A stretch of 64,000 nt of DNA, from the NCBI RefSeq assembly GCF_027579695.1, contig NC_083587.1, forward strand, positions 47,231,521 through 47,295,520, read 5' to 3'. Below, one piece after another: positions 41,151 to 46,404 of this stretch. The translations under genes were made by a program, and so were the position numbers. The notes beneath the pieces are model-generated. The model did not search any database. It saw only the letters and a program-made list of their open reading frames with translations, and was not told the origin of the DNA. Numbering within the stretch: position 1 is the first letter of the stretch; each line of letters begins with the position of its first letter. The stretch comes from Neoarius graeffei (taxonomy: Eukaryota; Chordata; Actinopteri; Siluriformes; Ariidae).

Positions 41151-41159
41151 TCCCCTAGT

Positions 41160-41370
41160 AACAGAGGACGTAAAGGGAACGTTAGAATTTGGTTCTCTAA
41201 AGGTTAGGTTATAACCAAACCAAAAACTACCATTTAAAGAACGTTCCCTTTGGTTACAGCAAAAACCAAACAAAGGCTAACGTTCCTTGAACTTTTAGGG
41301 AACCACTCATATGTTGCACTGCTACCACCACACAACGTTATGCTTGGCTGTTTTTTGGTTGTTCTGAGAA
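41160..41370. repeat. Left subterminal GGTTCCC motif cluster
   Basis: Contains GGGAACGTT, AACGTTCCC, GGTTACAG and TAGGGAACCAC elements in both orientations, mirroring 45465-45870. Confidence 0.7.
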
Positions 41371-43320
41371 CCAGTGCTGACAGTTTTTGTTTCCTTGATA
41401 TTTTACACTAGGCCAGCCTAGTGTGACATTATTCATTAATTTCTCCTGTTCATTTTTATGGTAGGGCTAAATTGGACCAAAGTGCAAATAGAGTAAAATA
41501 CAAAAAGGTATTATATTTGTTTTAAATTCAGTGAAATGGAGACATACACAAAAGTAGGTCTAACTTACAAAGACTGCAAAGAGTACCATACAAAGTGAAT
41601 TATATTGCAAGTTGCATTCCAAACGGGGTTCCCCATTGGTAGGCAAGAGCCTAATTACCTGATAATGCAAGCCATTGGTAGGCTGCTATTAAGATTCCAC
41701 ATATTAAATGGCTGATTAGCTGGCCATTGCATTTTATCTTTTGCAAACTTGTTTAAAGACAACATTATTGGTGCTGGATTTGGTGGACCCCTTGCATTTG
41801 TGGCCTTAAGAAACAATATTTCAAATTATATCCCGCAGTACAACAGTTTTTTCCCCCTAATGATTTGGTATGTTCTCTCCTTTTTCTCTTGGCTATGAAA
41901 AACTGTGTGCATATCACTGTATTAGTGCAGCCTTCATTCATTGTTTCTCCATTCATTGTTTTTATAGCACATTAATTGAACCAAAGCTGAAATAGAAAGA
42001 GTAAAGTAGGCTACAATAAAATAAGTATATATGTCGCAAGTTGTATTAAGTCAAGTAGACTACAATAAAAAATAAAATGTAGATGTCTCAAGTATTCCAA
42101 ACTGAGTTTTAAATTCACACAAAAAAACTAGACCAAGAGCAATTAAGCTTAGCCTACTTGCTAATGACAGCCATTCAGAGGCACATGAAATGGCTGGGCT
42201 ATTAAAGCCATTGTGTGTGCATTCTGGCTTTTGGAAACTGGTTCAACCAGTTTTTGTTTTTGTAACTGACAAAGCTGCTATACAGCAACACTTTGCAAAT
42301 TCAATAGATTGCCATATAACTCATGAGTTAAAGTACACAATGGCATATTATTGTAGCAGTGGACTGAAATTATTAATCTATAAGACTGCCTCGCGTGTGT
42401 GTGATGTCACGTCCTGTAATAGCTATGGTTAGAGAGCTCATTGGAAATGAGAGGACAACTGGATGTTTACGTTTTTGCAGAGGTTCTTTTTTTCCCCCTG
42501 TACACTAAACGAAAAGTCTAATGGCACAGCAATTCAGCATGCATCTATTTGAAAACGTTTCACCTTACGCCTACAGCAAGATCAACTGAAGGTATGTCGA
42601 TAGTACAGCCATTTATTTAGCATGTTAGCTACCATGATGCCATCCTTTATGGAAAGAATCAAACTCTGCACTACAGTGAATTGTTATTACTAGAGTAATG
42701 CTGTAGTGCAGAACAGAATTACTACAGTGTTAGTGCAGTAAATGCTATAGTCTGGATAAAAATAAACGGCATACTGCAACGGCTCTGTACTTTAATGCAG
42801 AGGGCAATTTCGTGGACAGGAAACACTGCCGTCCTGCCGCAAGAAAAAAATGTATTGTTTTCGCATAAGGGATATCTGCCTCTATATTTACTAGAATAAA
42901 TGGTTGTTGTTGCAAACTTTATGCGGTAGGCTATATGGGTAGAAAATAGAAATTTATTTTTAGAATGTGGTAGTTTTATATCATGAGAGGGTTCTATGGA
43001 AGTCATTTGTTAACATTTTACTATCTAAACGTTTGTATCGCAACGACCGCCCTCAGTTTGAAATGAACATAGACTGCTGATTGGCCACCAGGTTGCCTGA
43101 CGTGGTGGGGGTGTGGCTGTGAAGACATGGATAATTGGGTTGATCGCAATGAACAGAATCAATTGCTGCTATCTTCGGACGCAGAGAGCACCTTTTGCTT
43201 CAACAGCTTTTACTATCATTCATATATATATGAATGAGTGATTCCACGCGTATGGGTACTGAAATGGGGACATGAACTTATTCACCTAAAACCATTTCTT
43301 TTTTTACCATCAGGTCACAA

Positions 43321-43323
<3 letters not shown>

Positions 43324-43387
<64 letters not shown>
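43324..43387. repeat. (TA)32 microsatellite
   Basis: Uninterrupted TA for 64 bases, directly upstream of the DUF4806 gene exons. Confidence 0.97.
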
Positions 43388-43390
<3 letters not shown>

Positions 43391-43479
43391 AGTATGGTTG
43401 TAAACTGAAACACTGTGCTTAAATTTATGTTGTTGTTGTAATGTTGTATTTACATTTTCCCCGCTTTTCATTGCAACAG

Positions 43480-45130
43480 GTACACATTGTTTGCATGGTA
43501 TTGCATTGCAGCCAATGAGTTCAAAGAGGTTGGCCAGACAGATCTACACAAAGGAATGGAAGAGGGCGCGGTGAGAGGTGTTGAATGTGCGAGCACTGGT
43601 GCGTGCCCAGCTGGATGCAGGAGATGCAGCAAACAGGGCAGAGGAGTCTGCGCGAGATGCAACAAGCAGGGAAGAGCAGGCTGCGCGAGATGCAGCAAGG
43701 ACAGGCCAGGCTCTGCAAGAAGCAGAGCAACAACATAATGGACCTCAACACATGCCAGAGATACAACCGGCGGAGATTGAAGAACAGCCTGAGTTCATGG
43801 CAGAGCCAACAAGTTCGGTCAGCAGCTCGGAGCAGTACAGCAGCAGTCCCTCAACCCATGTCAGTCCAGCACCCAGCCGTCGGACATTGGAAGAGTCGTA
43901 CATTGAGGAACAAACATCATCCGACCCAGTTCAGGGTACATTTGCTTTGAATTTTATATTTACTATCTGATTACAAGTTCTTAACCAAGAAAGCAAACAC
44001 TAACAATTTTCTTTTCAAGAACTTCAGGAATGACCCATGGCGAAGAGGAGGGGGCTTCAGGCATGACTGCCGTAATAAGGCGTAAGTACTTCATACACAC
44101 TTGTTGATGTTCACACAGGAAAAGTGTATTGGGTATAAAACTAAAATGAATTTCATCTCAATTCTACCTGTAGTCCTGGAGGAACGAAAGAGGCTCCTAT
44201 TGAGGACGATGGATGACACAAAAAGAAGTAAGTACTATATACACACATTTTCACATATGACAAGTATATTATGTTCAAAAACTAAAATGAATTCTATCAC
44301 AAATGTACCTAGCCATGGAAGAGCACATGGGGCGAATGACTAGGAGAATGGAGGCTATGGAGAGGAGGATGGAGGCTATGGAAAGGAGGATGGAGGGTAT
44401 GGAGAGGAAGTCAGAGACATTGGAGGCTGCTGTGGTCTCGAACCCGCCTCAGCCTCCTCTGCAGGAAGATGTGCTGTTGGGCCTATGCAGCACGCTGGAG
44501 GAGCTAGACAGGAGTCTGGCTCAACCAGAAAGAAGGAACCAAATGGTAATTAATTGGACATAATTATATATGAAATAAATTGTCATTGGTAATGTATTGA
44601 TTTGGCTAATGAAAGTAGACCACATAAGCTCTCCAAATTCATTTTCATTGTATACTTATATTTTTCTTGTTTTTGTTTGTTTTTTTTGTAGAAACATTTC
44701 CTTGAACGCCTGGGAGGGGCGAATCCGGGGGCAGCCATTCGTCGCATTCTACGCCAGGTGGCTACCAACAATGTCCTGGCGCAGTACAGCCTGAGGGGGA
44801 GGAGAGCAAAAAAGCCTTTCCAGAACTTAACCCTTTGCAAAATTATAACGGGTAAGTGTTCATACATTTTTCAAATCAGTGTTATGCCAAGTTTGACTGA
44901 GATTTAAATGTGTAACTTTTTTTTTTTAAACTTCCCTGGCAAGAAGGTAGCTGATATTGAGGAGTGCATTGGGCATGCACTGAAGTTTGCACCACACAGA
45001 CGGTAAATTAAACTTTAAGTCTTTTATCAATCGCTGAATATTCACAATAATTAAATGAAACGTTGGCACTAAGTTGGTGTTAAACGTTTTGTTTCTTATT
45101 CTTTTTAGGTCAGCTGATCCTCAAGATTGA
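43480..45130 (+). CDS. Spliced gene with coiled coil and DUF4806-like C-terminus
   Basis: Exons 43480-43935, 44028-44081, 44174-44227, 44313-44545, 44692-44851, 44951-45002 and 45109-45130 have AG/GT borders, and all phases match from the end of exon 1 onward. Exon 1 codes an Ala/Arg/Glu helix (LDAGDAANRAEESARDATSR) and a Ser-rich stretch. Exon 4 has MEAMERR heptads (44330-44410), a clear coiled coil. Exons 5-7 give HFLERLGGANPGAAIRRIL, QYSLRGRRAKKPFQNLTL, DIEECIGHALKFAPHR, matching my recollection of DUF4806 (Pfam), a domain of unknown function common in fish and Hydra proteins. In exon 1 this frame meets a TGA at 43572, so either translation starts after it, another splice is used, or the copy is dead. 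The N-terminal exon is not identified. Confidence 0.65.
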
Positions 45131-45464
45131 AGACGTACACCAACTTCTATGCACACGCACCCGCTTTTGGCATTTCTAAAATTTTTCTTATTTTTTGCCT
45201 TTATTGTATTTTATTAAGAAATAGTTTTCATAATTGTCTATAGTTGTCAGATGTTTTATAATGTATAATAATGTTGCACTGTGTTGCTGAGGTCCTTACC
45301 AATGTTGTATTCTTGATATTTTTTTCTATTAAACTTTCTAGTCCTGCAACATTTTCCTGGTCATTCATCACTGCTTATATGTTCTGAAGTAAATAGTTGT
45401 CATGCAACCAAAACTTTTACAATGAATTACATACTACAGAAATATGACAACATTATGGTGAGGG

Positions 45465-45870
45465 AAAGAACATTGGGGGAACACTGAGGGAACCAAACAT
45501 GTAACCAACGAGGTTACTAGAATGTTGTAGGGGAACCTTGTGGGAACCAACACATAATAAACAAGGTTGGGGGAACATCAGGAGCACGTCTAGGGAACCA
45601 AACATGTAACCAACAAGGTTATGGGAACGATATGGAAACGTTGAGGGAACAAACATGACATGAACAAGGATAAAGGGACGGTGTGAGAACGGTGAGGGAA
45701 CCAAATGGGAACCACATGAGTAACGTTCTGGGAACCAAAATTAAACTTTCCTGCCAACCAAGTGACAACCTAAACAGAACCAAAAATGACTTTCAGGGAA
45801 CGTAGCCGGAACCAAACTGGAACCAAAGGCTCATGTTCCAGGAATGTTCTGGGAACCAAAAATTGTTAGT
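45465..45870. repeat. Right subterminal repeat array
   Basis: GGGAACCAAACATGTAACCA recurs at 45489 and 45594 (about 105 bp apart), with further GGGAACC, GGGAACG and AACCAAAA units up to the terminus. Such dense subterminal arrays are typical transposase-binding regions. Confidence 0.8.
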
Positions 45871-46026
45871 AGGGTCTGATGTCTCGAGGCTGAGAAGAGT
45901 TTAGAGCTGACTCACTCATTGGTTAGGACTTCATTGCTGGGACAGAAGACCATGGCAGTGTATGTTTATGTCGGAAGTGACAGATGAATTAACCAATCAG
46001 ATTTTGATTTATAATGGGAGGGACCA

Positions 46027-46404
46027 GGTGGCACAGTGGTGTAGTGGTTAGCGCTGTCGCCTCACAGCAAGAAGGTCCTGGGTTTGAGCCCAGCGGCCGA
46101 TGAGGGCCTTTCTGTGCGGAGTTTGCATGTTCTCCCCATGTCCACATGGGTTTCCTCTGGGTGCTCCGGTTTCCCCCCCAGTCCAAAGACATGCAGGTTA
46201 GGTTAACTGGTGACTCTAAATTGACCGTAGGTGTGAATGTGAGTGTGAATGGTTGTCTGTGTCTATGTGTCAGCCCTGTGATGACCTGGCGACTTGTCCA
46301 GGGTGTACCCCGCCTTTCGCCCGTAGTCAGCTGGGATAGGCTCCAGCTTGCCTGCGACCCTGTAGGACAGGATGAAGCGGCTAGAGATAATGAGATGAGA
46401 TGAG
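46027..46404 (+). mobile_element. SINE-A copy, complete, 13-bp target duplication
   Basis: Full-length 378 bp: A box TAGTGGTTAGC, B box GGGTTTGAGCCC, body, and (GAGAT)n tail. Perfect direct repeat ATGGGAGGGACCA on both sides (46014-46026, 46405-46417). This is the best reference copy in the window. Confidence 0.96.

Follow-up and report, generated by a model that had tools for sequence, protein, structure and literature searches.

The stretch of DNA analysed here, hereafter the window, comprises 64,000 nucleotides of the Neoarius graeffei assembly GCF_027579695.1 (NC_083587.1:47,231,521-47,295,520, forward strand) and contains, at 41153..45874, a mobile element that carries a spliced gene for a protein with a DUF4806 domain. 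We interpret this unit, at a probability of roughly three in four, as a non-autonomous, internally deleted transposon of the animal CACTA type (the TRC group, with tnp2 transposases), whose fuller form would make two proteins with a common N-terminal exon, a tnp2 transposase and a coiled-coil DUF4806 protein. The window element itself is young, has no cutting enzyme and carries a broken gene for what is probably a DNA-binding helper. The evidence for this reading comes from the exact boundaries and copy number of the element, from an exon 1 common to both proteins, from a unit elsewhere in the genome in which transposase, DUF4806 exons and the same right end lie on one strand, from the linkage of tnp2 with DUF4806, and from constraint on both proteins between families.

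The boundaries of the element are right to the base. A first-pass annotation, made before this analysis, had proposed inverted ends and possible TC target copies around a unit of 4.7 kb, and the comparison of copies places the ends exactly at 41153 and 45874, with TC on either side:

41153..45874, + strand: whole element of 4722 bp, read as a non-autonomous, internally deleted member; from the comparison of the ends of 20 copies, their 2-bp duplications and the sizes of 36 paired ends.
41151..41152, unstranded: left target duplication, TC; from the flank comparison of copies.
45875..45876, unstranded: right target duplication, TC; from the same comparison.
41153..41163, + strand: left terminal inverted repeat, CCCTAGTAACA; 33 sites in the genome match the 20-bp left end exactly.
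45864..45874, - strand: right terminal inverted repeat, reading TGTTAGTAGGG on the + strand; the 19-bp right end has 42 exact genome matches.

The terminal inverted repeats, CCCTAGTAACA and CCCTACTAACA, have the CCC core of animal TRC elements (compared with PMC1636069). With up to 2 mismatches allowed, the 2.34-Gb assembly holds 82 matches to the left end (reversed control, 3) and 58 to the right end (reversed control, 27). Pairing of ends, limited to 30 kb, took in 48 of these left ends and 48 of these right ends; among them, 36 left ends have a right end within the limit, and 13 of the 36 pairs span 5.9-6.7 kb. Flanks were compared in 21 copies, of which the C26 copy has no readable right end; of the remaining 20 with both ends, 18 are flanked by a perfect 2-bp target duplication, the length found in animal TRC/CACTA elements, the misses being C14:59.8 Mb and C17. 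When every left flank is paired with every right flank, all 400 pairings yield 58 matches, or 40 of 380 once the true pairs are taken out, and shifted offsets yield 0-3 duplications in 20; the true pairs stand far above both controls, which makes the boundaries secure. Long genome matches to the window element are mostly 93-99% identical among the 34 scored of 601 first-look candidates. Relative to L021, a complete sibling of 5967 bp, the window copy is missing about 0.7 kb at one place and 0.4 kb at another.

The DUF4806 gene inside the element is genuine and is broken in the window copy. Its exon borders, set from GT-AG signals and reading frame in the sequence only, give the following parts:

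43515..43935, + strand: exon 1, the first part of which is common with the transposase open reading frame (ORF) at the C8 locus described below.
43572..43574, + strand: premature in-frame TGA in exon 1; of 19 siblings, 17 have CGA, 1 AGA and 1 TGA.
44028..44081, + strand: exon 2, from GT-AG and frame.
44174..44227, + strand: exon 3, from GT-AG and frame.
44313..44545, + strand: exon 4, from GT-AG and frame, with a heptad-like MEAMERR repeat that is, by eye, a probable coiled coil.
44692..44851, + strand: exon 5, the first and larger part of DUF4806, from frame and Pfam.
about 44926..45002, + strand: remnant of exon 6, its acceptor and first codons deleted in the window copy, from the 20-copy alignment.
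45109..45130, + strand: exon 7 with the stop codon, from the 20-copy consensus.

The annotation had described a multi-exon gene of consistent phase with heptad repeats and a DUF4806-like end. The heptads are those of exon 4, and the domain is borne out by the Pfam profile, against which a manual splice of exons 4-7, made across the broken exon 5/6 junction, scores 30.7 bits for DUF4806 (PF16064; cut-off 25, E 4.1e-7). The seven exons fit as well, but the window copy itself has the in-frame TGA and has lost the exon-6 acceptor, a deletion in common with L002, L003 and L004 (4 of 20 aligned copies), and it is the 20-copy consensus that splices over all seven exons into an open frame of 346 amino acids. 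Five of the 20 copies (L006, L007, L009, L012 and L014) have no stop, frameshift or altered splice site. The distinct substitutions among copies number 99 nonsynonymous and 24 synonymous, with 8 stops, which gives a ratio of nonsynonymous to synonymous substitution rates (dN/dS) of about 0.99, or 0.91 when all changes are counted; they fit an absence of constraint with p 0.73 against an intron-based expectation that is itself rough, with 51 intron changes only. Judged by their sequences, the DUF4806 genes in the copies look like decaying descendants of a once-working source and not like a conserved host gene. A PF16064 family search of the genome returned 0 matches, and its control was also silent; the domain is probably missed there because an intron splits it.

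No transposase or tnp2 domain (Transposase_21) was seen in the window copy, as the annotation had stated, and none is encoded in the four complete copies that this negative covers (L021, L022, L023 and L030+L010), the longer paired-end copies being mostly unread. The longer, transposase-bearing form that the annotation had suggested looking for is found as a fuller relative with an open tnp2 ORF at C8. A genome search with the transposase frame of a second family (L063, see below; best 100 of 651 candidates scored) meets C8:57752192-57753346 at 69% identity, in an open frame of 678 amino acids, and in the C8 piece L064 an uninterrupted ORF of 644 amino acids runs from MSSKRLARQTYTKEWKRARREVLNV, with the start MSSKRLARQTYTKEWKRARREV, in frame into the tnp2 domain. 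This ORF opens with exon 1 of the DUF4806 gene, and its exon-1 DNA is 92-96% identical to that of the window family. In tblastn comparisons it matches three other tnp2 proteins of the genome at 1.6e-36, 5.6e-39 and 5.3e-39; these proteins, of families A, B and C, match PF02992, A being a hand-joined broken copy. Residues that do not vary across the alignment of four tnp2 proteins are kept by the C8 transposase, among them D252, D403 and E566, which plausibly form a catalytic triad. Matches to DUF4806 exons follow on the same strand as the transposase at 57758513-57758731 (97%) and 57758877-57759038 (94%), L065, which covers the right subterminal stretch, has 98.9% identity with the window across 350 bp, and an exact right end lies at C8:57760071-57760089. 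The tnp2 ORF, the DUF4806 exons, the array and the right end are contained on one strand within 57.752-57.760 Mb, and a fuller member that ends on the right exactly as the window element does therefore has tnp2, with homology at 1e-36 to 1e-39.

The pairing of tnp2 with DUF4806 is found in two families of the genome. When the DUF4806 part was searched against the genome in six frames (the best 150 of 428 candidates being scored), a second DUF4806 family came to light, about 62-71% identical; its L063 locus has an open frame of 431 amino acids that includes an exon-1 relative (MSEKRLARQAYTKRWKRVRREV) and continues into the tnp2 domain, matching the three tnp2 proteins at 2e-20 to 9e-16 (tblastn). 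This frame is followed, in the same orientation, by DUF4806 exons (6e-27), and the right end is related to the window type, with the motif GGGAACCAAACATG... and the terminus ...AAAATTGTTACTAGG; the tnp2 part is truncated next to an insert with inverted-repeat ends. Across 24 related tnp2 loci (at least 69% identity), 17 are followed on their own strand by a DUF4806 match no more than 10 kb away. A comparison of the two families yields dN/dS values of 0.27 over exon 1 and the tnp2 ORF together, 0.23 over exons 4-7 and 0.14 within DUF4806, and these values indicate that both proteins were held by selection while the families diverged.

Subterminal repeat arrays are typical of the TRC/CACTA group, and motif counts show them to be strong at the right end of the window element and weak at the left:

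41170..41400, unstranded: left subterminal region with sparse GGGAAC, AACGTT and TTGGTT motifs; from motif counts against shuffles.
45469..45860, + strand: right subterminal array with 13 GGGAAC and 7 GGAACCAAA, in part with a period of about 50 bp; from motif counts and identity with C8.

Dense arrays had been annotated at both ends, and the right end bears this out. Its last 430 bp hold the 13 copies of GGGAAC where shuffles average 0.91, and the 7 copies of GGAACCAAA where shuffles average 0.06, and 0 of 300 shuffles reach either count. At the left end the description does not hold: the first 250 bp have 2 GGGAAC, 4 AACGTT and 3 TTGGTT, above chance yet sparse, and 0 copies of GGAACCAAA; AACGTT exceeds expectation in the element's middle as well, with 4 copies where shuffles average 0.61.

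By analogy with maize En/Spm, the transposase and the DUF4806 protein would be made from one transcription unit through alternative splicing; what is observed at C8 and L063 is the common exon 1 and the order of exons. The transposase would cut at the CCCTA ends, while the DUF4806 protein would bind the subterminal array, multimerise through its MEAMERR heptad coiled coil and gather both ends for the transposase, which is the part of TNPA in En/Spm; like TNPA, it may also regulate the promoter. Most likely, then, the DUF4806 protein acts as TNPA does in maize, on the subterminal GGGAACCAAA array. The earlier suggestion that the arrays imply a DNA-binding partner, encoded or borrowed by the element, is the option that fits best, given the exon common to the DUF4806 gene and tnp2 and the linkage at 17 of 24 loci; the binding itself is predicted, from a domain reported to be a BEN subtype (PMC11075544). 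Likewise, of the proposal that DUF4806 proteins are cargo or accessory factors of an undescribed transposon, the accessory role gains from the exon 1 common with the tnp2 ORF at C8 and L063, whereas the transposon, by its CCC core, 2-bp duplications and tnp2, is of a known kind. In the window copy, the transposase part would have been lost and the DUF4806 gene would then have decayed; being without transposase and with a decayed helper gene, this copy would be mobile only in trans, with proteins of other copies.

The En/Spm system has subterminal repeat arrays and internally deleted copies, and plant CACTA elements produce 3-bp target duplications. The window family is unlike En/Spm in its ends, which read CCCTA and not CACTA as in plant En/Spm proper, in its 2-bp duplication and in that its splicing is predicted, and the likeness of the DUF4806 protein to TNPA is one of proposed role only, with no homology claimed. 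As in maize En/Spm with TNPD and TNPA, a tnp2 transposase is accompanied by a smaller protein, apparently from one unit (available part of PMC1636069). According to the same part of that paper, animal TRC elements have ends built on a CCC core (Tribolium CCCTAGTAGCACCG...) and duplicate 2 bp of target, as 7 of 14 SmTRC1 copies do; they encode a Transposase_21 protein and, in 3' exons, extra proteins that were expected to be TNPA-like and matched nothing to which they were compared. SmTRC1 and the Tribolium element are resembled here in the CCC-core ends (Tribolium CCCTAGTAGCACCG, window CCCTAGTAACA), the 2-bp duplications, the tnp2-like transposase of the relatives and a further protein from 3' exons with a proposed TNPA-like role. 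Compared with the elements covered in that part of PMC1636069, the differences are that the extra protein here is DUF4806 and that the window copy has no transposase.

A broader idea, which we put forward tentatively and consider rather doubtful, is that animal CACTA/TRC transposons in general have DUF4806 or another BEN-type domain as their second subunit, and that the many orphan DUF4806 and BEN proteins of animals, host transcription factors included, arose from such subunits through repeated domestication. DUF4806 (PF16064) is a BEN subtype according to the accessible text of PMC11075544, which cites Pan et al. 2023. Near the tnp2 of family B (PF02992, 3.9e-7), at a distance of about 7.7 kb and in the opposite orientation, an exon matches the BEN profile PF10523 at 29.4 bits (cut-off 23.2, 9e-7) and the BEND6 structure 7yul at 7.3e-8, which also lends the main reading some weaker support. 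Near that of family C (PF02992, 1.8e-12), also about 7.7 kb away and on the opposite strand, there is an exon that is BEN-like by eye only, with no Pfam match and nothing useful in a PDB search, and a Tudor-like stretch below the cut-off.

Several observations weigh against the reading of the window unit as a derivative of a two-protein tnp2 transposon, or against its extension to BEN. At C8, the left-end pattern finds no match, the last bases of the element are known from the right-end pattern match only, the sequence read excludes 4.2 kb between the transposase and the DUF4806-gene exons, and the transposase stays under every Pfam cut-off (DUF4218 0.0075, Plavaka 0.054). After '...SSS', the exon-1 sequence of the 6-kb copies no longer matches the C8 ORF, so the derivative is no simple deletion of C8. 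The L063 transposase likewise has no Pfam match above the cut-off, and no left end is present within the 3.6 kb read upstream of it. In the linkage survey, the other 7 of the 24 tnp2 loci comprise 2 with DUF4806 only at 11-18 kb and 5 with none among the matches entered, and 8 of the 17 positive loci fall in one 3.2-Mb region of C2 (122.8-126.0 Mb) and are not independent. The alternative splicing is predicted from genomic sequence only. A PDB sequence search with the DUF4806 domain found no BEN chain, and in families B and C, where no left end was located, it is proximity to tnp2 that ties the BEN and BEN-like exons to an element.

Other explanations of the same features have been considered. 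The presence of tnp2 upstream of DUF4806, on the same strand and with a common first exon, could also mean that DUF4806 is the C-terminal DNA-binding part of one large transposase, its exons being spliced onto tnp2 in a way that bypasses the stop. We regard this as quite improbable, because the consensus joins exon 1 straight to the DUF4806 exons and yields 346 amino acids with their own stop, so that the short form is coding-capable, and because the C8 tnp2 ORF has a stop of its own about 4.6 kb ahead of the first DUF4806-gene exon match. It is also unlikely that the DUF4806 protein chiefly represses the transposon, or regulates it in connection with silencing, and stays outside the cutting complex, as a brake kept by short derivatives. 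Such a role would suit the finding that, of 46 loci with an exon-4 match of at least 91% (best 150 of 428 candidates), only C8 has a tnp2 match of at least 69% beside it (tnp2 side, best 100 of 651), and TNPA of En/Spm also acts on its own promoter (PMC1636069, in the part available); yet the copies are unconstrained after insertion (dN/dS about 0.9-1.0), with no sign of retention for a repressing product, and a deletion derivative would keep the gene by default.

The annotation had offered, as its other option, a host gene caught between transposon ends. Its several exons with normal splice sites in the consensus are what a host gene would have, but the idea is hardly credible, for the gene and the ends are common to many copies (20 aligned genes; 20 copies with both ends), exon 1 belongs to the transposase ORF at C8, the same layout recurs in the second family at L063, and the copies evolve neutrally.

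The transposon superfamily is already known, and what appears new, as far as the literature searched, is the link between DUF4806 and tnp2: a full-text literature search, with Repbase entries and subscription papers outside its scope, found no report of it. The TNPA counterpart in animals was left open in 2006, the available part of PMC1636069 offering no conserved candidate, and the DUF4806 protein, with its exon common to the transposase and arrays nearby that it could bind, is a concrete and testable one; through it, a domain of unknown function also gains a probable origin. For DUF4806, PMC7642931 records high numbers in Hydra, PMC13270666 reports enrichment in an ambrosia beetle, and PMC11075544 places it in genes of zebrafish chromosome 4. 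The domain in the window is like PF16064 in its profile score and unlike those cases, where it is treated as a host gene or domain, in being transposon-borne. Annotators who meet multi-copy DUF4806 genes should suspect a transposon origin.

Some candidates for the missing parts were discarded. L024 (C21), with tnp2 upstream of DUF4806, was taken for an autonomous copy, but its tnp2 is that of family A, with the right end ...GACAAGGG and arrays of TTCTATAGAA, and was placed beside a DUF4806 element by a rearrangement with a 143-bp inverted duplication. This duplication, at about 4543-4719 of L024, is perfect and sits at the fusion junction, as if from aberrant transposition or repair. Two 11.2-kb copies considered as transposase carriers are the element plus a 5.3-kb insertion, Gypsy-type by eye; in L030 and L031 the insertion is 99.6% identical, in opposite orientations and at different places. 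Families B and C were rejected as holders of window-type ends, since their ends differ.

The tnp2 families at L057/L061 (C2:13965500-13981000), L059/L062 (C2:42549800-42565799) and L028/L029 appear to end in GGG, and two of them have subterminal arrays of their own, of TTCTATAGAA in family A and ACCATGGTTA in family B. Opposite-strand exons lie left of tnp2, those matching or resembling BEN being the ones near B and C. The C2 region at 122.8-126.0 Mb holds eight tnp2+DUF4806 units, one of them oppositely oriented, which suggests segmental amplification.

A related repeat with true CACTA ends accounts for 22 of the 82 left-end matches, which read CACTAGTAACACAGGACGTA and stand in some cases as close inverted pairs; at L036 such a pair builds a 77-bp palindrome. 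Left ends reading CCCTAGTAACAGAGAACGTA occur in L033 (61-162) and L032 (61-105), with only 45-55 bp in common with the window element, and the one in L033 sits in a short foldback. Directly to the right of the element, positions 46020-46395 of the window hold an interspersed repeat with an antisense reading frame that recurs, by eye, in L024, L032, L034 and L036.

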